From Hydrogenispora sp. (GTDB lineage: Bacteria > Bacillota > UBA4882 > UBA10575), in contig DUQQ01000009.1 in NCBI GenBank assembly GCA_012837705.1, positions 1 through 47,933 of the forward strand: DNA of 47,933 nucleotides, read 5' to 3'. Of the stretch, positions 1,910 to 36,268 are shown one piece after another. The position numbers and the translations under genes were made by a program. Under the pieces are notes generated by a model. That model did not search any database. It was not told the DNA's origin and saw nothing but the letters and a program-made list of their open reading frames with translations. Each line of letters opens with the position of its first letter. The stretch's first letter is position 1.

Positions 1910-3280
1910 GTGGAAAAAAGAGAAAGGTTTGCTTCCCGCTTGGGCTTTATTCTAATCGCCGCCGGGTGCTCCATTGGCTTGGGGGATGTGTGGCGTTTCC
2001 CCTACATCACCGGGCAGTATGGCGGCGGCATCTTCGTCCTCATCTATCTACTCTGCATTGTCGTACTGGGCATTCCGATCATGACTATGGAACTGGCCGT
2101 CGGGCGGGCGAGCCAAAAAAGCATCGCCACTTCCTTTAAAGATATGGAGCGCGACGGGCAGAAGTGGCATCTGATGGGGTATGCGGGGATCCTCGGCAAT
2201 TATCTCCTCATGATGTTTTACACCACCATCGCCGGTTGGATGCTGGCTTATTTCTACAAATTTCTACTTGGACAGTTTAACGGGCTCAATACCCAGCAGG
2301 TGGGACAGGTCTTTACTGATCTATTGGACAATCCACTGGCGATGATTCTTTGGATGGTCATTACCACCGTGTTCTGTTTTGGCGTCTGCTCCCTTGGTCT
2401 GCAAGAAGGCGTGGAAAAGGTGACCAAGGTGATGATGACCTTGTTGTTCGCGCTTATTATTATGTTGATCATCAAAGCAGTTACCCTGCCCAACGCCGGT
2501 GAAGGCCTCAAGTTTTACCTGCTCCCCGATTTCCAGCGTATGCAGGAAATCGGGCTCTGGGAAACCGTCTTCGCCGCGATGAGCCAGGCCTTTTTCACTT
2601 TAAGCCTAGGCGTTGGTTCGATGGCAATCTTTGGAAGTTACATCAGTAAACAACGGAGTCTTTTCGGCGAATCGATCAACATCGCCACCCTGGATACGGC
2701 CCTCTCCTTACTGGCAGGGCTGATCATCTTTCCGGCCTGTTTTGCTTTTGGGGTTGACCCCGGCGAAGGTCCCGGGCTGGTCTTTGTCACCCTGCCCAAT
2801 ATCTTCAACGCAATGGGCGGCGGACAAATCTGGGGGGCCCTCTTCTTTCTCTTCATGACCTTTGCCGCCTACTCTACGGTGATCGCCGTCTTCGAAAACA
2901 TCCTTGCCTTTGGCATGGACCTTTGGGGTTGGAGCCGGCAGAAATCGGCCCTCATCAATACCTTTTTAATGATCATCCTCGCTCTGCCCTGCATCCTAGG
3001 GTTCAATGTCCTCAAGGGATTTCAACCTTTAGGCGAAGGAACGATGGTCTTGGATCTGGAGGATTTTATCCTCAGCTACAATCTGCTTCCTTTAGGTTCC
3101 CTGGTTTATCTACTATTCTGCGTGACCCGTTTTGGTTGGGGCTTTGACAACTACCTGAAGGAAGTCAACACCGGTGAGGGGATTAAACTTCCCCGCGCCT
3201 TTAAACCCTATTTCCAATGGGTGCTACCGGTGATCATCCTGATCGTACTGATTCAGGGGTATATTAACTTCTTTAGCTAA
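1910..3280 (+). CDS. Sodium-dependent transporter, neurotransmitter:sodium symporter (NSS/SNF) family
   Basis: The 456-aa integral membrane protein has about 11-12 hydrophobic segments and starts at GTG, 7 nt after AAGGAGG. The N-terminus carries the NSS signature AAGCSIGLGDVWRFPY, followed by GQYGGGIFVLIYLL and an ELAVGRASQ motif. Members couple Na+ influx to uptake of amino acids or related compounds; the substrate cannot be read from sequence. Compared with LeuT, the Asn of GNAVGLGN is Cys here, and the second Asn, a Na1 ligand in LeuT, is Asp. A short periplasm-facing loop replaces the long eukaryotic EL2. It forms an operon with the DUF4097 protein 15 bp downstream. No MetS-like small subunit follows. 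Confidence 0.92.
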   Translation: MEKRERFASRLGFILIAAGCSIGLGDVWRFPYITGQYGGGIFVLIYLLCIVVLGIPIMTMELAVGRASQKSIATSFKDMERDGQKWHLMGYAGILGNYLLMMFYTTIAGWMLAYFYKFLLGQFNGLNTQQVGQVFTDLLDNPLAMILWMVITTVFCFGVCSLGLQEGVEKVTKVMMTLLFALIIMLIIKAVTLPNAGEGLKFYLLPDFQRMQEIGLWETVFAAMSQAFFTLSLGVGSMAIFGSYISKQRSLFGESINIATLDTALSLLAGLIIFPACFAFGVDPGEGPGLVFVTLPNIFNAMGGGQIWGALFFLFMTFAAYSTVIAVFENILAFGMDLWGWSRQKSALINTFLMIILALPCILGFNVLKGFQPLGEGTMVLDLEDFILSYNLLPLGSLVYLLFCVTRFGWGFDNYLKEVNTGEGIKLPRAFKPYFQWVLPVIILIVLIQGYINFFS

Positions 3281-5382: not shown

Positions 5383-6270
5383 TCACGTTTCCGCTTTCAG
5401 ATGTTGCCGGATCCCGTGGATCTGGCCGAAAATCTGCTTGGCCACCGCGGGCCGGTTCATCGTATAAAGATGGATCCCGTCCACCCCACTGGAGAGCAGA
5501 TCGATGATCTGTTCTGTGGCGTAGGCGATGCCCGCCTCCTTCAACGCTTCGGGATTGTGCTCGTAACGGTCCAGAATCCGCCGGAACTTCGGGGGGATAC
5601 TGGCCCCGCAAAGGCTAGTAATCCGCTCGATCTGCTTTTTGTTGAGGACCGGCATGATCCCGGCCGCCACCGGCACTTTGATCTGCATCTTCTCCAGTTT
5701 TTCACGGAAAGCATAAAAAAGGTTATTATCCAAAAACAACTGCGTAATGAGGAAATCCACCCCGGTCTCCACCTTTGTTTTCAGGTTGCGCAGATCGGCG
5801 TCGGCATTTTCCGCTTCAGTATGGACTTCCGGGTAGCAGGCCGCCCCAATGCAGAAATCGGCGGTTTCTCTGATGTATTTAATCAAGTCGGAAGCGTAGG
5901 CAAAAGCGGTGCTGGCCGGTGCCGTCGTCCTTTGATCGGCGGGCCGGTCGCCCCGTAACGCCAAGATGTTCTCGATCTTGGCCGCTTGTAACCGGCCAAG
6001 GATCGCTGCCACCTCTTCCTTGGTCGAGTTGATACAGGTCAGGTGGGCAAGGGCTTCAATCCCGTACTTATTCTTGATGGTATCGGCAATCTCAACTGTA
6101 TGGGAGCGGCTCCCCCCGGCGGCACCATAGGTAACACTGATGAAATCAGGCCGCAGATCAGAGAGGGCAGCAATGGTCGCCAACACCCCGTCCAGGGGAG
6201 ACCCGGGTTTGGGGGGGAAAATCTCCAGCGAAAAGACGGGTTTGCTTTTAAAATATTCCTTAATGCGCAT
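5383..6270 (-). CDS. metF: Methylenetetrahydrofolate reductase
   Basis: The 295-aa protein is a full-length MTHFR TIM barrel. It carries SLEIFPPKPG near the start, FISVTYGAAGG, the LTCINSTKEE segment, NILALRGDRP (FAD/folate region) and VDFLITQLFLDN. It reduces 5,10-methylene-THF to 5-methyl-THF, the methyl donor for the MetH encoded at 11893-14271. The start at 6270 follows AAAGGAGGTT. It is the last gene of the SAM-riboswitch operon, 12 bp after the UPF0280 gene, so it is probably repressed when SAM is abundant. The electron donor is not evident: no MetV-like partner is adjacent, although the operon contains a ferredoxin. Confidence 0.95.
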   Translation of the reverse strand: MRIKEYFKSKPVFSLEIFPPKPGSPLDGVLATIAALSDLRPDFISVTYGAAGGSRSHTVEIADTIKNKYGIEALAHLTCINSTKEEVAAILGRLQAAKIENILALRGDRPADQRTTAPASTAFAYASDLIKYIRETADFCIGAACYPEVHTEAENADADLRNLKTKVETGVDFLITQLFLDNNLFYAFREKLEKMQIKVPVAAGIMPVLNKKQIERITSLCGASIPPKFRRILDRYEHNPEALKEAGIAYATEQIIDLLSSGVDGIHLYTMNRPAVAKQIFGQIHGIRQHLKAET

Positions 6271-6282
6271 ATTAACCTCCTT

Positions 6283-7005
6283 TCAGGGCCTGGTTAGATT
6301 TATATTACCATAGGCACCCATTTTATCACCGACGATGATCAAAACACCTTCCACCCCGGGAATCGCCATCCCTCTTTCCAGCCCCTTTTCGATCTCGGCA
6401 GCCGTCTTCACGCTGTTGCCAACAGCCGTGGCCGCCGCATCGGCCAGCAGGGCATCCCGGGCCACGACGACGGCGGCATCGGTCCGGCCGAAGCTCAGCG
6501 CATGGCCGACGGTCCCGCTGGAGGTACAGATCCCCCACGGCTGCCCATCACCGGGTATGGCCAGTGCAATCTGGTTCGAAAAGGGGGAAGTACCAGCATA
6601 GATCAGGACTTTCCGGGCGGTGCTTGTCACGACAAAAAGGTCGCCCCCGTTCTCAATGATCAGCTCTTTGCTCTTCTTTAATAAGGAAAGCCCCACAAAC
6701 TGGGCGAGGGCACCGGCCACCGCGGCCATCGGTCCGACCTTGGCGGCGGCGGCCGCTTGACACATGGCCTGAATGATCTCCGGACTATCCGGGAGCGGTT
6801 CCACCGGAGCCAGACTATGGCGGAAAGCCGGTTGGCGTCGGATCTGCTCTACAATCTGCCCCCGGTATTGCCGCAAGGCGTGACGGGCATCATCAGCTAA
6901 ATCAAGCTCCGCCGCGATTTGCAGGTCCGACTCGTCGACGGTCACATTGAAGGAGCATAAATCGGTGGAGACCATCAGTTCCCGGTAAAACCGTGGTTCA
7001 TGCAT
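6283..7005 (-). CDS. UPF0280 (COG2122, ApbE-like) protein of homocysteine synthesis
   Basis: The 240-aa protein starts at the ATG of MHEPRFYREL. The longer open frame upstream only reads through the ferredoxin gene out of frame. A GGTGGC ribosome site precedes this start, which overlaps the ferredoxin stop by 8 nt, suggesting translational coupling. Recognisable segments are GPMAAVAGALAQFVG, ENGGDLFV and GICTSSGTVGHALSFGRTDAAVV. COG2122 proteins have been linked in methanogens to growth-dependent homocysteine formation together with DUF39 and ferredoxin proteins. The biochemical step is unsettled; a role in sulfur delivery or cofactor insertion is inference. Its place between ferredoxin and metF in a SAM-controlled operon supports the methionine role. 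Confidence 0.9.
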   Translation of the reverse strand: MHEPRFYRELMVSTDLCSFNVTVDESDLQIAAELDLADDARHALRQYRGQIVEQIRRQPAFRHSLAPVEPLPDSPEIIQAMCQAAAAAKVGPMAAVAGALAQFVGLSLLKKSKELIIENGGDLFVVTSTARKVLIYAGTSPFSNQIALAIPGDGQPWGICTSSGTVGHALSFGRTDAAVVVARDALLADAAATAVGNSVKTAAEIEKGLERGMAIPGVEGVLIIVGDKMGAYGNINLTRP

Positions 7006-7204
7006 ATAGCCACCGGACTGCCGTACTGACCTTGATCGCCCGCAAGGGGCAGGCCTTGACACAGCTTCCACAGTCCGCACAACGGTTTTCGTCGAAGGTG
7101 AGGGTGCACCCGTCGCCCCCGAGCCGGAGAGCGGCCGAGTTGCAGACCGCCGTACAGGCCCCACAGTGCACACATTTTTCCTGATCAATATTTATCTTCG
7201 CCAT
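6998..7204 (-). CDS. Two-cluster 4Fe-4S ferredoxin of the homocysteine operon
   Basis: This is a 68-aa protein with two [4Fe-4S] motifs: CVHCGACTAVC (residues about 11-21) and CADCGSCVKACP (about 42-53). The start ATG follows directly on the stop of the DUF39 gene. In Methanosarcina the homologous partner of DUF39 carries an extra N-terminal NIL domain. Here that domain is absent and only the ferredoxin part remains. It probably passes electrons or handles sulfur during conversion of aspartate semialdehyde to homocysteine. The context (DUF39, UPF0280, MetF) makes this reading much firmer than sequence alone. Confidence 0.9.
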   Translation of the reverse strand: MAKINIDQEKCVHCGACTAVCNSAALRLGGDGCTLTFDENRCADCGSCVKACPLRAIKVSTAVRWLYA

Positions 7205-8374
7205 TTAAACTCCTCCCTTCGGTTTGATCGCCAGCGGGTTGAGGGCCGCCACCTTTGGGAAATGTGCAACCGGTTCCTGCAGCGTAAAGCCCTCTTGCAC
7301 CCATCTTTTCACTTCCGCCGCAATCTGTCTTGCCTTATGCAGACTGGTCAGGGGTGCAGTCTTGATCCGCTTCCCTTCCAGGGTAATCTCGCCCGAGCGC
7401 AGCTCGGCGTAGCTGCATCTTGCCAGTACCGGTCGGGAACGACTGGGTACACTGTAATCAACAATATTGGTATGGATATCCTTGTTTTCCACGGCCAGGT
7501 TAGCCAGGAGATCTTCATCCAAAACCGGAATCGGAATCCCGATCCCCACAAACAAGGAAGTACCGTATTTTTCATAGACCGCCGGTTGCAGATAGGCAGG
7601 GCTCATCTTCTTCAAATCACCGATCACCGCCAGGGTAGCCGCGGGCGCTAAGGGAATCCCCTTATCGTTACGGGGCTTTTCGGTGACGAACTGAGTCCCT
7701 TGCCAGGCCACATAGCCGGGGGCTCCGCCCAGGAAGATCCGGGTCCCGATCCCGATCGTCCGTAGATGCGGGTCTTTCAGTAAGGGACTGAGTTCACCGG
7801 CGGTGGAGTAGTTGATGTTGCCCATCCGCGGTTTTAAGACCCCCATGTAGGTATAGAGCGTCCGGTCGGAAGTATTCACCGCCACCGCGTAGTTCTGGTA
7901 ACAGTTCCGCGGGTTGAACAGGTAAGCTTCGTTCAGATCGTCGAGGGTAATGTACGTATCAATCTCCTTCCGGGGATAACAATCGGTCCCGCCGGAAGTG
8001 GCTTTCAAGCGTACAGCTTTACGGGCCACCAGATCACAGATGACATGGGCCCCGCCGTACTCGATCCCCCGGTCGATGGAAGGTTCGGTCGCGCCGATGT
8101 AAGTGTCGACCGCCGCCAAACCGCCATACCCATTGACGTTGTTCAGCAAGATCTTCCCCATCTTAATGGGCGGTTCGGCATGGCCAAAATTGAGGAAGGC
8201 CCCGGAAGAGCACATCGGCCCAAACGTCCCCGTGGTCACCACATCCACATCTTTGGCGGTCGCCTTGACCCCTTTTTCCTTCGTCATCTCAATCACTTCT
8301 TCAGCGGTGACCACAACGGCACGGCCCGCACGGATCCGGGCATTGATCTCTTCGTAGCTTTTTTTGATCCCCAT
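7205..8374 (-). CDS. DUF39 (COG1900) homocysteine biosynthesis protein
   Basis: The 389-aa protein starts at MGIKKSYEEIN with AGGAGG 8 nt upstream. The open frame extends 32 codons further, but only through the riboswitch terminator. It carries the DUF39 core: VTTGTFGPMCSSGAFLNFGH, a GYGGLAAVDTYIGATE stretch, GTDCYPRKEIDT, and IFLGGAPGYVAWQGTQF. Several conserved Cys residues are present, including MCSSG and GTDCYP. In methanogenic archaea this family makes homocysteine from aspartate semialdehyde and sulfide. The archaeal form has C-terminal CBS domains; none is seen here. It is the first gene of a four-gene operon with ferredoxin, UPF0280 and metF, under SAM-I control. Confidence 0.93.
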   Translation of the reverse strand: MGIKKSYEEINARIRAGRAVVVTAEEVIEMTKEKGVKATAKDVDVVTTGTFGPMCSSGAFLNFGHAEPPIKMGKILLNNVNGYGGLAAVDTYIGATEPSIDRGIEYGGAHVICDLVARKAVRLKATSGGTDCYPRKEIDTYITLDDLNEAYLFNPRNCYQNYAVAVNTSDRTLYTYMGVLKPRMGNINYSTAGELSPLLKDPHLRTIGIGTRIFLGGAPGYVAWQGTQFVTEKPRNDKGIPLAPAATLAVIGDLKKMSPAYLQPAVYEKYGTSLFVGIGIPIPVLDEDLLANLAVENKDIHTNIVDYSVPSRSRPVLARCSYAELRSGEITLEGKRIKTAPLTSLHKARQIAAEVKRWVQEGFTLQEPVAHFPKVAALNPLAIKPKGGV

Positions 8375-8422
8375 CGCACTATCCTCCTTCTCTGATCCAT
8401 CTTCGGTGAGGGCGGAGTGAAG

Positions 8423-8453
8423 AAAAAAGCTGCTTTCGATAAGAAAGCAGCTC
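8423..8453 (-). terminator. Riboswitch-controlled intrinsic terminator
   Basis: On the minus strand AGCTGCTTTC pairs with GAAAGCAGCT across the loop TTATC, followed by six T residues. It lies between the SAM-I aptamer and the DUF39 start and is the expected expression platform: formed, and transcription stopped, when SAM is bound. Confidence 0.85.
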
Positions 8454-8494
8454 TTCGATTTGCCAAGCAACCGATGCTTTGCATCTGTGCGTTT

Positions 8495-8606
8495 CTTATC
8501 TTTCAGGGTTAAGCTTTAACCCTGCAGGAATTGACACCGCTGCATTCAAATGAGAATGCCGGTTGTCGGGCTTCATTGGGCCAGTCCCTCCACCTCTCGC
8601 GATAAG
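8495..8606 (-). promoter_or_regulatory. SAM-I (S-box) riboswitch aptamer
   Basis: Read on the minus strand, it begins CTTATCGCGAGAGGTGGAGG and ends AAAGATAAG, so CTTATC/GATAAG closes P1. Conserved elements are in order: GAGGTGGAGGGACTGGCCC (kink-turn side), ATGAAGCCCGACAACC, and GGTGTCAATTCCTGCA. The P4 hairpin CAGGGTTAAAGCTTAACCCTG follows. The terminator at 8423-8453 lies downstream, before the DUF39 start. High SAM should stop transcription of the homocysteine/metF operon. Confidence 0.96.
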
Positions 8607-8636
8607 ACCATCTATTAAATTGTGATATTGTAATAA

Positions 8637-8665
8637 ATTCTACGGTAAACGCGGTCACTTGTCAA
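8637..8665 (-). promoter_or_regulatory. Sigma-A promoter of the SAM-riboswitch operon
   Basis: On the minus strand TTGACA (8665-8660) and TAGAAT (8642-8637) are spaced by exactly 17 bp. Transcription would start near 8630, about 25 nt before the aptamer. Confidence 0.85.
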
Positions 8666-9107: not shown

Positions 9108-11045
9108 GTGAGAGACAAAGCTTTTCGCGAAGAAACGATCTTTATTGTTGAGGAGAAATGTCTGGGCTGTAACAAATGTGTTCGCAATTGTCCGGTGTTT
9201 GGTGCCAATATTTCCTATACGATCAACGGGGAGACCAAAGTCCGGGTCAATCCGGAGTTGTGTATTCAATGTGGGAAATGCATCGAAATTTGCGACCATA
9301 AAGCCCGGGATTACCGAGATGATACGGAACGGTTCTTCCACGATCTTGAGCAAGGAGAAAGGATCGCCGTCTTGGTCGCCCCTGCGGCGCGGACCAACTT
9401 TCCCGAGTATAAGCGGGTGATCGGGTACTTAAAAAAAGCGGGGGTAGATCTGGTCTATGATGTTTCCTTTGGGGCCGATATTACGGTTTGGGCGTATCTG
9501 AAAGTTTTGGCGGAGACCGGCGCCAGTTCGCTAATTGCCCAGCCTTGTCCGGTCATCGTCAACTATGTGGAAAAACACCAACCCGCGCTCCTTGATTACC
9601 TGGCGCCAGTCCATAGCCCGATGATGTGCACCGCCATCTATTTACGGAAATATAATGGGTATCAGGACCGCTTAGCCTTTCTCTCCCCCTGTATCGGCAA
9701 GAACGATGAGATCAACGACGCCAACACCCAAAATACCGTCCAATACAACGTCACGTTCAAAAAACTCATCAATTATCTCACAACTAAGGGCATAAATTTG
9801 CAGGAGTATCCGGAAGATGAATTTGACGATCCCGGATGCGGATTAGGATTTGTTTTTCCGCGGCCGGGTGGCCTCCGCGAAAATGTCCAGGCGCTGGCTG
9901 GGGACGTTTGGATTCGGCAAATCGAAGGGCAGGAAGCCGCCTACCTTTATTTACAAGATTACCGCCGCCGCCTGGAAAGAGGGAAAAAGCTCCCCACCCT
10001 GGTGGATATTTTAAACTGCCCCTATGGGTGTAATAAAGGAACTGGTTCGATCCCGGACGTCGACATCGACGATATTGACCTGGCGCTGCAGGCCTTTTCG
10101 CAAGAAAGGGCCGGAAATAAAAGCCGTCAGAATCTGAAGCACCACTCCGAGAAACTGTTTAAAAACTTCGATAAACAGTTACGGCTGACTGATTTTTCCC
10201 GCCGTTATAAACAGGCCGACGTGCGGCCGTTAAAAGAACCGACCCGGGAGGAGTATGCCGCGATCTTCGCGCGTTTGCACAAGAATACACCAGCTTCCCA
10301 GAATCTCAACTGCGCGGCTTGCGGTTATCAGACCTGTCGTGATATGGCCAAGGCAATCTTTAATCAACTGAACCGGCCGGAGGATTGTATGGATTATAAC
10401 CGCAAGGAAGTCATCCGGGAGAATGAAAATCTGGAGGAAAAAAACCAGGAGATCCGCAGGATGCTGGCGGAGATCACCCAACTCAGCACAGATCACCAAA
10501 AACGCGCGGCCGAGTTAACCAGGCGGATGCAGGAGATCAATATCTCCATGGAGGAAGTGTACCGCGGGAATGAACGGGCCGCACAAGATATTGAAAAGAT
10601 CGGGTATGATGCGGGCGAAGTCGCTACGTACGCCGAAAAACTGCGGGAACTGGTCGCGGAGATCAATGATAATGTTGACCGCTTTACCGAAGCCACCGCG
10701 AATATCCTCGGTGTCGCCCGCCAGACCAGAATTCTTTCGTTGAATGCCGGGATTGAAGCGGCCCGAAGTGGTGAACACGGTAGAGGTTTTAACGTGGTGG
10801 CACAAGAGATCAAACGACTCGCGGAGGAATCGCAGAAAACAGCGGAAGAGGCCTTGGAGAACGAGGAGGCCATCCAGGCTTTAGTTGTCAAAGTGTACGA
10901 GATCTCCAATACCATTGACCAAAAGATGGCCGCCGTAAATATGGCGATCAAGAATATTTCGGCGATCATTCAGACCTTTACCGCCCAGGGCCAAGAGATG
11001 GTGGCCTCGACCACGAAGATTGTCCAAGAATACACCCGGAATTGA
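9108..11045 (+). CDS. Soluble [FeFe]-hydrogenase-like / FeS / methyl-accepting sensor fusion
   Basis: The 645-aa protein starts at GTG after GTAGGAGGAG. Residues 12-66 hold two ferredoxin motifs (CLGCNKCVRNCP, CIQCGKCIEIC). Residues about 85-330 are the hydrogenase large-subunit C-terminal domain: AQPCPVIVNYVEKHQP (C147), LSPCIGKNDE (C195) and NCPYGCNKGTG (C304, C308) match the three H-cluster loops. Residues about 403-440 are a 4Fe-4S domain (CAACGYQTC ... EDC). From about 440 there is a coiled coil and a methyl-accepting signalling tip, RILSLNAGIEAARSGEHGRG. There are no membrane segments. L1 lacks the TSCCP proton-shuttle Cys (QPCP instead), so a redox- or H2-sensing role is more likely than catalysis. 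Confidence 0.88.
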   Translation: MRDKAFREETIFIVEEKCLGCNKCVRNCPVFGANISYTINGETKVRVNPELCIQCGKCIEICDHKARDYRDDTERFFHDLEQGERIAVLVAPAARTNFPEYKRVIGYLKKAGVDLVYDVSFGADITVWAYLKVLAETGASSLIAQPCPVIVNYVEKHQPALLDYLAPVHSPMMCTAIYLRKYNGYQDRLAFLSPCIGKNDEINDANTQNTVQYNVTFKKLINYLTTKGINLQEYPEDEFDDPGCGLGFVFPRPGGLRENVQALAGDVWIRQIEGQEAAYLYLQDYRRRLERGKKLPTLVDILNCPYGCNKGTGSIPDVDIDDIDLALQAFSQERAGNKSRQNLKHHSEKLFKNFDKQLRLTDFSRRYKQADVRPLKEPTREEYAAIFARLHKNTPASQNLNCAACGYQTCRDMAKAIFNQLNRPEDCMDYNRKEVIRENENLEEKNQEIRRMLAEITQLSTDHQKRAAELTRRMQEINISMEEVYRGNERAAQDIEKIGYDAGEVATYAEKLRELVAEINDNVDRFTEATANILGVARQTRILSLNAGIEAARSGEHGRGFNVVAQEIKRLAEESQKTAEEALENEEAIQALVVKVYEISNTIDQKMAAVNMAIKNISAIIQTFTAQGQEMVASTTKIVQEYTRN

Positions 11046-11237: not shown

Positions 11238-11909
11238 ATGGAGATCCCACCGGGGGAAGTATTAAGGTATCTGGGTTACCGGAACCAAAAGCTCGATCCG
11301 GCCATGGCGTGTTTGATCGAGGAATGCCGGGCGGAAACGACCGCGTTGATGCGGACGGGTGTCGTCTATCGGATCTACCCCTTGGAAAGGGACGGGGACC
11401 AGATCCGGCTCCTGACCACCACTTTACGCATGCAAAGCAAAGACCTCAGTAGGCATCTGCGGCATGCGGACCGCTGCGTTCTCCTGGCCGCCACTTTAGG
11501 GCTGGCGCTTGACCAAAAAATTGCCGCCTATGCCCGCCTTGACCTGACCAGAGCAGTGGTGATGGATGCTTGTGCCACGGCGGCGATCGAAGCCGTCTGC
11601 GACCAAGCCCAAGCCCAGCTCGAGGCCCAGGTGGCCCCGGAAGGTTACCGCCTTACTAGGCGTTTCAGCCCCGGCTACGGCGATTTATCCATCGTGCACC
11701 AAAAAGCCATTCTGGAGACACTCCAAGCTTACACCCGGATCGGCCTCACGGTGAATGCGGACCATATTCTGCTTCCCCGCAAGTCGGTGACGGCCTTTAT
11801 CGGCCTGCAGAAGGGGGAACAAGCGGTGGACCGCGACCGGTGCCGCCATTGTCCGGATCAAACTTGTCAGTACAGAAGAGGTGGGGATGGAGATGAATCA
11901 CAAACTTAA
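11238..11909 (+). CDS. Stand-alone cobalamin-dependent methionine synthase activation-domain protein
   Basis: The 223-aa protein starts at ATG after GAGGTGA. It resembles the C-terminal AdoMet-binding reactivation domain of E. coli MetH (Met_synt_B12): RFSPGYGDLSIVHQKAILETL is split by the typical P-G-YGD turn, then ILLPRKSVTAFIGL. It ends with a Cys-rich tail, RCRHCPDQTCQYRR. It overlaps the start of metH by 17 nt, so the two are translationally coupled. The downstream MetH lacks this domain, so it should act in trans to reductively methylate inactive cob(II)alamin using SAM. The Cys tail (CxxCxxxxC) could bind a metal, which is inference. Confidence 0.88.
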   Translation: MEIPPGEVLRYLGYRNQKLDPAMACLIEECRAETTALMRTGVVYRIYPLERDGDQIRLLTTTLRMQSKDLSRHLRHADRCVLLAATLGLALDQKIAAYARLDLTRAVVMDACATAAIEAVCDQAQAQLEAQVAPEGYRLTRRFSPGYGDLSIVHQKAILETLQAYTRIGLTVNADHILLPRKSVTAFIGLQKGEQAVDRDRCRHCPDQTCQYRRGGDGDESQT

Positions 11910-14271
11910 TCTGGATGGATTCCTGATCTTTGACGGGGCCATGGGGACAATGCTCCAAAGCTACGGCATGAAAGCAGGCGAACTCGCCGAAAGTTACAAT
12001 CTAGAAAGGGCGGAAGTCATCGCCGGGATCCACCGCGCCTACATCGAAGCGGGTGCGCAAGTCTTGACGACCAATACCTTCAGCGCCAACCGGTTTAAAC
12101 TGGCCGGAACCGGGCTGGATCAGGCCGCGGTCATCCGCACGGCGGTAGAGATTGCCCGGTGGGCCGCGGAGGATAACTTGGTGGCGCTGGACATCGGCCC
12201 TTTAGGCCAGCTGATGGAGCCCTATGGCACCTTAAGTTTTGATGCGGCCTATGAAGCCTTTGCCGAGCAGATTCAAGTCGGGGCCGCTGCCGGTGCCGAT
12301 CTGATTCTGATCGAAACCATGTCCGATCCTTACGAAGCAAAGGCCGCCATCCTCGCCGCCCGCGAAAACGCGGACTTACCCATCATTTGTACAATGACCT
12401 TCCAAGAGGACGGCCGCACCCTGACCGGAGCCGATCCCTTGACGATGGTGAATATTCTGCAAAGTTTAGGCGTCAGCGCCTTGGGGTTCAACTGTTCCCT
12501 CGGGCCCAAAGAGATTCTCCCGTTGGTACAGGAAGCCCTTAAATTTACCCGCGTCCCCGTCATTGTCCAGCCGAATGCGGGCTTGCCGCAGTTAATCGGG
12601 GAAGAAACGGTCTTCCAAATCACGCCCGCCGATTTTGCCGCCTATGGACGGGAGATGGCCGCCGCCGGCGTTCGCATCCTGGGCGGTTGCTGTGGGACCA
12701 CCCCGGCACACATCAAAGCCTTGAAAGAGGTGTTGGCCGAGGTTAAACCGGTAGCCACAAAGGCCCCGCGCTTCACAGCAGCCAGCTCGGCCACGACCAC
12801 CGTCACCTTAGGCGGCCCGGTCAAGATTATCGGGGAACGGATCAACCCCAGCGGCAAACGGCGCTTGCAAAAAGCCCTCCGCCAAGGGGATCTGGATTAT
12901 CTCCTCCGGGAAGCCGTTGACCAACAGGACCATGGAGCCCACATCCTCGATCTCAACGTGGGCTTGCCCGAGATCGATGAAAAAGCGGTCATGGTTAAAG
13001 CGATCAAAGAAATCCAGGGAGTCGTCACTCTCCCTCTCCAGATCGACAGCGTCAATCCGGAAGTGATTGAAGCTGCCGCCCGGATCTATAACGGACGGCC
13101 GATCATCAACTCGGTCAGCGGTGAGGCAAAGTCGCTGGCGGCTATTTTGCCCATTGTCAAGAAATATGGTTGCCTGGTTGTGGCTTTAACCCTTGACGAG
13201 CAGGGCATCCCAGCAACCGCCGAAGAACGCCTGGCCATTGCCGAACGCATCGTCAAAACCGCCGCCGAGTATGGCATCCCCAAAGAGGACATCATCGTCG
13301 ACTGTCTGGTTCTCACCGCTTCCGCCCAACAACGGGAGGTTCAGGAGACGATCAAAGCCGTCCGCCTGGTCAAGGAGAAACTCAATGTCAAGACCACACT
13401 GGGGGTGAGCAATGTCTCCTTTGGCCTCCCCGCCCGCGACCTCCTAAACCGCACCTTTTTGGCGGCGGCCCTGGCCGCTGGCCTGGATGCGCCGATCATG
13501 AACCCGCTGGACACCGCGATGCGCGGGACTGTACAGGCCTTCAATGTACTGTGGGATCACGACCGGGACAGCAAGGAGTTTATCGCCACCTACTCGGCGC
13601 TGGATGAGCAAGCACCCGCCCCCCCAGAGCCGGAACGGAAAGATCTGACGAAAATCGTCATCGCCGGGCTCAAGGAAGAAGCGGCTTCCGAAGTAAGAGA
13701 ACTGCTCAAAGAGGAAGAAGGTTTAGCGATCGTCGATCGTTACCTGATCCCGGCCCTAGATCGGGTCGGGGAAGGCTTCGAAAAAGGAGAGTTGTTTTTA
13801 CCGCAACTGATCCAGGCCGCCGAAACAGTCAAGCGGGCCGTGGCCGTGATCAAGGAAGATCTGGAGAAATTCCAGACCACGGCGGCAGGCAAAGGCAAGA
13901 TTGTCATTGCCACGGTCAAAGGGGATGTCCATGACATTGGCAAGAATATCGTCAAGATCCTCTTGGAGAACTATGGTTTTGAGGTGTATGATCTGGGCAA
14001 GGATGTACCCATTGAGCTTATTGTCAAAAAGGTCCAGCAAGAAGAGGCCCCGCTCGTTGGTTTGAGCGCCTTGATGACCACGACCGTCAAGAATATGGAG
14101 GAGACGATCACCGCCTTGCGCCGCTACTGTCCCCAGGCCAAAATTATGGTGGGCGGCGCCGTGCTCAATGCAGACTACGCCCAAAAGATCGGTGCCGATT
14201 TCTACGGGAAAGACGCCCGGGAAGCGGTGAAAATTGCGGAAAGCGTGTTTTGCGGGGAAAAAGTAAATTAG
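11893..14271 (+). CDS. metH: Cobalamin-dependent methionine synthase, short form
   Basis: The open frame begins at a GTG at 11881. I prefer the ATG at 11893 because AGAGGTGG is then 8-9 nt upstream; this gives 792 aa. Domain order: homocysteine S-methyltransferase (to about 285; FDGAMGTMLQ, zinc Cys in GFNCSLGP and GGCCGTTP), pterin-binding (about 300-565; IGERINPSGK, LDLNVGLPE), cap (about 590-670) and B12 Rossmann domain with the His ligand in GDVHDIGKN (about residue 680). The C-terminal activation domain is missing and is supplied by the overlapping upstream gene. It methylates homocysteine to methionine with 5-methyl-THF from MetF. Its 3' end overlaps the opposite-strand ybaK gene by 4 bp. 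Confidence 0.96.
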   Translation: MNHKLNLDGFLIFDGAMGTMLQSYGMKAGELAESYNLERAEVIAGIHRAYIEAGAQVLTTNTFSANRFKLAGTGLDQAAVIRTAVEIARWAAEDNLVALDIGPLGQLMEPYGTLSFDAAYEAFAEQIQVGAAAGADLILIETMSDPYEAKAAILAARENADLPIICTMTFQEDGRTLTGADPLTMVNILQSLGVSALGFNCSLGPKEILPLVQEALKFTRVPVIVQPNAGLPQLIGEETVFQITPADFAAYGREMAAAGVRILGGCCGTTPAHIKALKEVLAEVKPVATKAPRFTAASSATTTVTLGGPVKIIGERINPSGKRRLQKALRQGDLDYLLREAVDQQDHGAHILDLNVGLPEIDEKAVMVKAIKEIQGVVTLPLQIDSVNPEVIEAAARIYNGRPIINSVSGEAKSLAAILPIVKKYGCLVVALTLDEQGIPATAEERLAIAERIVKTAAEYGIPKEDIIVDCLVLTASAQQREVQETIKAVRLVKEKLNVKTTLGVSNVSFGLPARDLLNRTFLAAALAAGLDAPIMNPLDTAMRGTVQAFNVLWDHDRDSKEFIATYSALDEQAPAPPEPERKDLTKIVIAGLKEEAASEVRELLKEEEGLAIVDRYLIPALDRVGEGFEKGELFLPQLIQAAETVKRAVAVIKEDLEKFQTTAAGKGKIVIATVKGDVHDIGKNIVKILLENYGFEVYDLGKDVPIELIVKKVQQEEAPLVGLSALMTTTVKNMEETITALRRYCPQAKIMVGGAVLNADYAQKIGADFYGKDAREAVKIAESVFCGEKVN

Positions 14272-35524: not shown

Positions 35525-36268
35525 TTACACTCCATGAAAAACCCGGTCAAGCTCTGCCGTTAACCCGGCAAAGGTAAACGACTGGGCTTTTTCTTTTTTA
35601 CGGTAAGTCGCGCTTTGTTTGATATTTTTGTCGGCAAATTGGTAGACCGTAACCTCCTGATTTAGGGGATTCACGATCCAGTATTCCTGCACCCCGCACG
35701 ACAGATAAAGATCCAGTTTGGTGATTAAGTCTTTCCGTTGCGTGTTTTCGGACAAGATCTCCACCAGCAAGGTGGGCACCCCCTGGTAGTAATCATTAGC
35801 GTCCAACTTTTCTTCCAGATCGCAGATCACCATCAGATCGGGCTGGACCACATTAATATTCTCCGGATTCCGGTGGAGCGTGATGTCGTAGGGTGCGACC
35901 ATCGGCCGGCATTTCTTTCCGGCAAACCAGTTGTAGAAGATCCCAAAGAGCTCGGTTAAAACAATCTGATGCGCCGTTTTGGGCGAAGCTAAAAGGTAGA
36001 TCTCCCCGTCAATATATTCGTAGCGCTCCTCCGTATTTTTCGTCAGTTCCAAAAACTCCTCGTAAGAAGCCGGCCACGGGCCATCACCATAAGGAACAGC
36101 GTTTTCCGCTACCCCCTTTCCTTCTTCTGCCCCAGCTACTGACCGCGCTTGGAGCGCCGTTAACTTGGCTACCGCACGACCATTCTTGGTGATCACGATC
36201 TCTTCCCCCGCCGCCAGTTGCAAGTACTTTCCGAAATTATTCTGGATTTCGGTTGAGGTCACAATCAT
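35525..36268 (-). CDS. Phd/YefM-like antitoxin domain fused to Uma2 (DUF820) nuclease-fold domain
   Basis: The 247-aa protein has an N-terminal Phd/YefM module (residues 1-40: MIVTSTEIQNNFGKYLQLA, EEIVITKNGRAVAKLT), a linker, then a complete Uma2 domain (about 65-247). The latter shows the PD-(D/E)xK-like features VVQPDLMVICD, PTLLVEILSENTQRKDL, and LDLYLSCGVQEYWIVNP. Uma2 proteins are numerous, usually stand-alone and of unclear role. The DNA-binding antitoxin module plus three TTAGCTAA boxes over its promoter (36293-36324) imply autoregulation. No separate toxin gene is adjacent. It converges on tetR, 57 bp apart. Confidence 0.85.
   Translation of the reverse strand: MIVTSTEIQNNFGKYLQLAAGEEIVITKNGRAVAKLTALQARSVAGAEEGKGVAENAVPYGDGPWPASYEEFLELTKNTEERYEYIDGEIYLLASPKTAHQIVLTELFGIFYNWFAGKKCRPMVAPYDITLHRNPENINVVQPDLMVICDLEEKLDANDYYQGVPTLLVEILSENTQRKDLITKLDLYLSCGVQEYWIVNPLNQEVTVYQFADKNIKQSATYRKKEKAQSFTFAGLTAELDRVFHGV

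Follow-up and report, generated by a model that had tools for sequence, protein, structure and literature searches.

A predicted SAM-I-controlled homocysteine cassette without protein feedback domains in an uncultured Hydrogenispora species

What is the function of an operon that places metF behind an S-adenosylmethionine (SAM) riboswitch, together with a DUF39 gene, a small ferredoxin gene and a UPF0280 gene? The question is raised by positions 5,383 to 8,665 of a 47,933-nucleotide stretch of DNA, the whole of which is called the window below. The window is one contig (DUQQ01000009.1) of the 2.4-Mb draft genome (assembly GCA_012837705.1, G000 in our survey; 96.9% complete) of an uncultured anaerobic bacterium, Hydrogenispora sp. 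An initial annotation had assigned the gene set to homocysteine synthesis. We judge that assignment to be right, with a probability of roughly 0.8: the four genes would form a SAM-I-controlled L-aspartate semialdehyde sulfurtransferase (L-ASST) set that makes homocysteine from aspartate semialdehyde and sulfide, and that does so without protein feedback domains. The same families are required in Desulfovibrio vulgaris, where DUF39, a NIL/ferredoxin protein and COG2122 are all genetically needed for homocysteine, which is formed there without passing through homoserine (PMC5764234). In Methanosarcina, DUF39 and its ferredoxin have been named L-ASST, and Cys54 is essential (PMC12068725). The pathway chemistry would be ordinary and the form unusual, that is, a variant of a known pathway.

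The four genes and their leader

All parts of the cassette lie on the minus strand, and their identities as initially annotated are borne out by profile searches. The first gene (7205..8374) encodes a DUF39/COG1900 (HcyBio) protein of 389 amino acids, the proposed catalytic subunit of L-ASST. Its match to PF01837 (514 bits, 1.8e-154) covers profile positions 1-345 of 349, hence a full-length HcyBio domain. Cys55 and Cys132 are invariant in 43 homologous sequences, and their spacing matches that of Cys54 and Cys131 in MA1821, which itself lies outside the alignment. An AlphaFold model of the protein is of high confidence (predicted local distance difference test 94.8, predicted template-modelling score 0.92). 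A PDB sequence search gave no relative, and a PDB fold search with the model gave no credible match, only noise with TM-scores of about 0.1; the modelled fold is possibly an unsolved one.

A domain profile search found no CBS domain on this protein. The absence of the archaeal CBS domains had been pointed out before, and it stands, but as the usual condition rather than a peculiarity: neighbouring DUF39 reading frames are mostly 385-455 amino acids long, even in Methanomassiliicoccales. As most other relatives are too short for a CBS domain by reading-frame length, CBS does not define L-ASST.

The second gene (6998..7204) encodes a 68-amino-acid 2x[4Fe-4S] ferredoxin with two 4Fe-4S motifs, which gives Fer4 matches. 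It is followed by UPF0280/COG2122 (6283..7005, 240 amino acids), identified with NF003323, the PRK04334 model (2.4e-86; 289.2 bits, cutoff 271). A start at the ATG at 7005, with an 8-nt overlap with the ferredoxin stop, makes the longer reading frame in the same frame unneeded; a homologue with a solved structure is available (PDB 2o34, E 7.9e-42). The last gene (5383..6270) encodes MetF, 5,10-methylenetetrahydrofolate reductase (TIGR00676, 1.7e-98; 329.3 bits, cutoff 293.7). According to targeted family searches, on which all our genome-wide statements about this genome rest, it is the sole enzyme of its kind there (a single PF02219 match). The intergenic spacings are 0, -8 and +12 nt, so the four genes likely share one transcript.

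Upstream of DUF39, the initial annotation had described a textbook promoter, SAM-I aptamer and terminator, and each of these was recovered. A sigma-70-type promoter, TTGACA-17-TAGAAT (8637..8665), matches the consensus at 11/12 positions, on a scale where about 3 promoter-like sites per 5 kb are expected by chance; congener G003 keeps it as TTGACA-17-TAAAAT. The covariance-model search that had been proposed for the leader yielded a predicted SAM-I (S-box) aptamer at 8493..8608, which matches RF00162 over its full length (model positions 1-108) with 85.3 bits and E 6.8e-19, the gathering threshold being 44.4 bits. Orthologous aptamers are present in congeners G001, G002, G003, G004 and G006. 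Two mutually exclusive structures can be drawn downstream of the aptamer. One is an intrinsic terminator (8422..8452) made of a 10-bp stem (8452-8428) and U6, with a predicted energy of -14.7 kcal/mol. The other is an antiterminator (8438..8500), in which the P1 3' strand GATAAGAAA (8500-8492) pairs with TTTCTTATC (8446-8438) in a duplex of -13.3 kcal/mol; it folds once the terminator 3' half is left out of the folded sequence. GATAAGAAA would thus have alternative partners: the P1 5' strand in the SAM-bound state, which leaves the terminator free, or TTTCTTATC in the terminator 5' arm, which gives antitermination. By these predicted pairings the leader is a standard S-box off-switch, in line with the proposed SAM-I control of the gene set. 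One other SAM-I element was found in the genome, upstream of a gene that, read from its sequence, is S-adenosylmethionine synthetase-like.

A mechanism can be proposed on these grounds. At low SAM the antiterminator would form, and DUF39, ferredoxin, UPF0280 and MetF would be transcribed; at high SAM the terminator would form. Electrons for the DUF39 reaction would come from the ferredoxin, UPF0280 may aid delivery of sulfide-derived sulfur to DUF39, and MetF would supply 5-methyltetrahydrofolate. The latter would be combined with homocysteine by a nearby MetH to give methionine. Contrary to the initial description of a complete methionine module, the cassette is not one by itself, since the gene for MetH is found elsewhere, at 11.9-14.3 kb and in the opposite orientation (11881..14271, plus strand). 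This cobalamin-dependent methionine synthase (PF02574, PF00809, PF02607, PF02310) has no activation domain of its own; a stand-alone activation-domain-like protein (11238..11909, plus strand) matches PF02965 weakly, at 21.3 bits, below the cutoff of 25.

Distribution of the cassette and loss of the NIL domain

The related-genome survey comprised 41 genomes, together with 19 loci fetched from relatives and 80 named loci. DUF39 occurs in 22 of the 41 genomes, and our surveys detect the three-family set throughout Bacillota and also in Actinomycetota, Bacteroidota, Spirochaetota and others. This occurrence, together with the genetics of D. vulgaris (PMC5764234), contradicts the view that the families are known mainly from methanogens. 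S-box control of DUF39 is not new to the window either, and recurs across Bacillota: SAM-I was found in 17/19 fetched loci, directly before DUF39 in 16 and, in the remaining locus (L045), about 5 kb upstream of it, before another MetF-like gene. With a SAM-I model built here, an element directly before DUF39 was seen in about 20 of the 80 named loci, Bacteroidota included. No paper linking COG1900 with riboswitches was found in the open-access literature. In Clostridia bacterium PL23a_bin.55 (L059), two tandem SAM-I aptamers (2899-3003 and 3165-3267), each with a terminator-like hairpin after it, lie upstream of DUF39; the NIL-ferredoxin of the same locus is broken in its ferredoxin part.

The lack of a NIL domain on the window ferredoxin, reported initially, was confirmed (no PF09383 match). 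Outside the genus, DUF39 is followed in nearly all loci by a NIL-bearing homologue of about 135-140 amino acids (about 136). Among the 80 named loci, only a Fermentithermobacillaceae metagenome-assembled genome (L069) has another NIL-less ferredoxin after DUF39, and in L098, L125 and the relative L052 no ferredoxin is found at that place. The UPF0280 that adjoins the L069 ferredoxin (7515-8444) carries a long inserted HPA/S-rich repeat. The 68-amino-acid form is common to three species of the genus. The only NIL domain of the window genome sits in a MetN-like ABC ATPase, which is accompanied by a permease and a binding protein.

In our view NIL is an accessory domain of the ferredoxin partner that may vary, and we therefore class the cassette as an L-ASST variant and not as canonical L-ASST. 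NIL has been proposed as the methionine sensor of L-ASST, and CBS as its SAM sensor (PMC12068725). Because both are absent, SAM-I would be the only visible feedback in the genus.

The history of the operon was approached through the DUF39 tree, in which the genus clusters with L059, Acetobacterium and further members of the Clostridia rather than with its own family. Forcing genus and family into one group lowers the log-likelihood by 67.7 units (approximately unbiased test, p 0.0014; the test was prompted by identities seen beforehand). Loss of NIL from the family's own operon is ruled out by this result. The same constraint is not rejected for UPF0280 (p 0.147). As the tree places the genus away from its own family, it suggests that DUF39 was horizontally acquired. 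MetF directly after UPF0280 is seen elsewhere only in L059 and in Negativicutes INTA.CYC.032 (L065).

An operon that has moved could also have been reassembled, and the foreign lineage of DUF39 leaves room for an origin of the NIL-less form by replacement with another ferredoxin gene instead of deletion of NIL. We regard such a replacement as unlikely: the 68-amino-acid protein is 45-58% identical to the ferredoxin part of NIL-ferredoxins and occupies the same place between DUF39 and UPF0280.

A second homocysteine route and the fate of the cassette in congeners

Is the cassette the sole route to homocysteine? The search for O-acylhomoserine genes proposed with the initial annotation revealed a complete metA and metY route in the window genome, and the cassette is therefore not the only route there. 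A complete pathway of this type had been named beforehand as one half of what would speak against the assignment, and this half was found. MetA is encoded on contig C35 (PF04204, 473 bits) and MetY on contig C82 (NF006096, 752 bits; also TIGR01326). The two contigs (loci L032 and L033) overlap by exactly 127 nt, and the genes are adjacent though split in the assembly. When the contigs are joined, metA and metY form a divergent pair 291 bp apart, an arrangement that is intact in G003 and G004; the spacer of the window genome has no Rfam match. MetA reads GAPVE where Escherichia coli MetA reads GAPLG. In Bacillus MetA the glutamate of GAPVE is associated with a preference for acetyl-CoA, and acetyl-CoA use by the MetA found here would fit an O-acetylhomoserine-type MetY. 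MetX was absent by TIGR01392, a test of limited reach since 0/14 control genomes passed the cutoff though 9 matched the model; the role of MetX is filled by MetA.

Congeners differ in what they keep. G004, like the window genome, has both the cassette and metA-metY. In G002 and G003, SAM-I lies directly before metF, divergent from metH, and the DUF39, ferredoxin and UPF0280 genes are missing at the same locus. The DNA just upstream of metF in both resembles the 3' end of UPF0280. The remnant is clear in G002 (its score of 47 exceeds the highest value from 2000 shuffles, 29) and weaker in G003 (29, with a shuffle maximum of 27). Because of this remnant, G002 and G003 are considered to have lost the cassette, and a recent insertion of the cassette before metF is ruled out for G002 and, with less certainty, for G003. 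In G003 metA and metY are both intact; G002 has metA, and its metY is split into two contig-end pieces. G007 has no DUF39 but does have metA and metY; its metF stands at a contig start, with the leader beyond the contig. The NIL-less cassette is present in G006 (98% complete), where the searches gave neither a MetA nor any strong MetY-family match; MetX was not searched for there, but would be insufficient unless a sulfhydrylase or cystathionine enzyme accompanied it.

Hence, the cassette seems to be exchangeable with the metA-metY pathway. Several observations weigh against our reading, this exchange included. Given a complete O-acylhomoserine route in the window genome, the cassette might be needed there under some conditions only, or be redundant. 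In G003 the similarity of the remnant reaches significance with the window copy of UPF0280, but not with that of G004 or G006. No anticorrelation between DUF39 and metA was found over the 41 genomes (p 0.54); exchange would therefore hold for some congeners and not as a rule, and phylum-wide mutual exclusion of DUF39 and metA is not supported. The broader proposition, a genus whose L-ASST is stripped of feedback, whose SAM sensing is wholly at the RNA level and whose three-gene cassette is exchangeable with metA-metY, is accordingly put forward as tentative, at somewhat less than even odds.

The same facts might describe a redundant leftover in decay: metA-metY is complete in the window genome and would make the homocysteine, the cassette is deleted in G002 and G003, and loss of NIL would be a step of degeneration toward their state. 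We consider this quite improbable. All four genes are intact, and in comparisons among the window, G004 and G006 the ratio of nonsynonymous to synonymous divergence (Ka/Ks) is 0.07-0.10 for DUF39, 0.10-0.17 for ferredoxin, 0.18-0.20 for UPF0280 and 0.10-0.13 for MetF, over Ks values of 0.5-2.0. The four genes are maintained under purifying selection, also where metA-metY is present. In addition, the NIL-less ferredoxin is retained in three species, among them G006, where neither MetA nor an enzyme of MetY type was found.

That DUF39 makes another thiol here, with SAM-I reflecting a general sulfur demand, is a very remote prospect: DUF39 relatives do perform similar aldehyde-to-thiol chemistry, and the paralogue MMP16 makes coenzyme M (PMC12068725), but the score with TIGR03287 (142.7 bits, cutoff 363.95) rejects a coenzyme M synthase or methanogenesis marker 16 identity, the gene is linked to metF behind SAM-I with metH nearby, and the C55/C132 spacing is that of L-ASST.

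UPF0280 was detected in 21 of the 22 genomes with DUF39 and in 0/19 of the others (Fisher p 8e-11, uncorrected for relatedness); the one genome with DUF39 but no UPF0280, G001, has its DUF39 gene cut off by a contig end. The joint loss of the three genes and the fact that UPF0280 is never found without DUF39 in the 41 genomes support a dedication of UPF0280 to the DUF39 homocysteine step in these bacteria. MA1715, the COG2122 orthologue of Methanosarcina (PMC5764234), has been described as a sulfur-trafficking helper of L-ASST (PMC12068725).

Two side observations concern other genes of the window. A reading frame of 645 amino acids (9108-11045, plus strand) fuses a ferredoxin, an [FeFe]-hydrogenase large-subunit C domain, an FeS domain and an MCP signalling part, and is a putative redox or hydrogen sensor; a homologue also adjoins metF in G006. 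Farther away (35525-36268, minus strand), a Phd/YefM antitoxin-like N-terminus (1.9e-7) is fused to a Uma2 nuclease-family domain.

Implications and comparison with known systems

What is new here is the loss of the cassette in congeners that keep the switch and metF, the co-occurrence of UPF0280 with DUF39, the NIL-less ferredoxin and the foreign lineage of DUF39. The genus offers a set of natural variants: cassette plus metA-metY, NIL-less cassette alone, and cassette deleted with switch and metF kept. Such natural knock-outs, together with the NIL-less form, make the functions of UPF0280 and NIL testable. If the broader, tentative proposition is true, the species of the window would have two routes to homocysteine for different sulfur or SAM states, a sulfide-direct one gated by SAM-I and another without SAM-I, and the case of G006 would mean that NIL serves regulation and is dispensable for catalysis. 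For annotation, genomes of this kind may be mistaken for methionine auxotrophs, or assigned a single pathway where they have two.

Among characterized systems, D. vulgaris Miyazaki F (DvMF_1464, DvMF_0262 and DvMF_0044) uses the same three families to form homocysteine without homoserine (PMC5764234); the window set differs in that it is NIL-less, stands in one SAM-I operon with metF and coexists with metA-metY. The L-ASST of Methanosarcina acetivorans, MA1821-MA1822 with MA1715, shares the catalytic family, the ferredoxin partner and the UPF0280 partner (PMC12068725), and its Cys54 and Cys131 would correspond in position to Cys55 and Cys132 of the window protein. In contrast, the window set lacks the CBS (SAM) and NIL (methionine) sensors, and SAM would be sensed by RNA instead. 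The layout of promoter, aptamer, antiterminator and terminator, with metF downstream, is that of the S-box operons of Bacillota; however, the homocysteine step is here represented by the DUF39 cassette and not by O-acylhomoserine enzymes. The closest likeness in gene order is found in the operons of L059 and L065, which read SAM-I, DUF39, NIL(-ferredoxin), UPF0280 and MetF as in the window, but which retain NIL.

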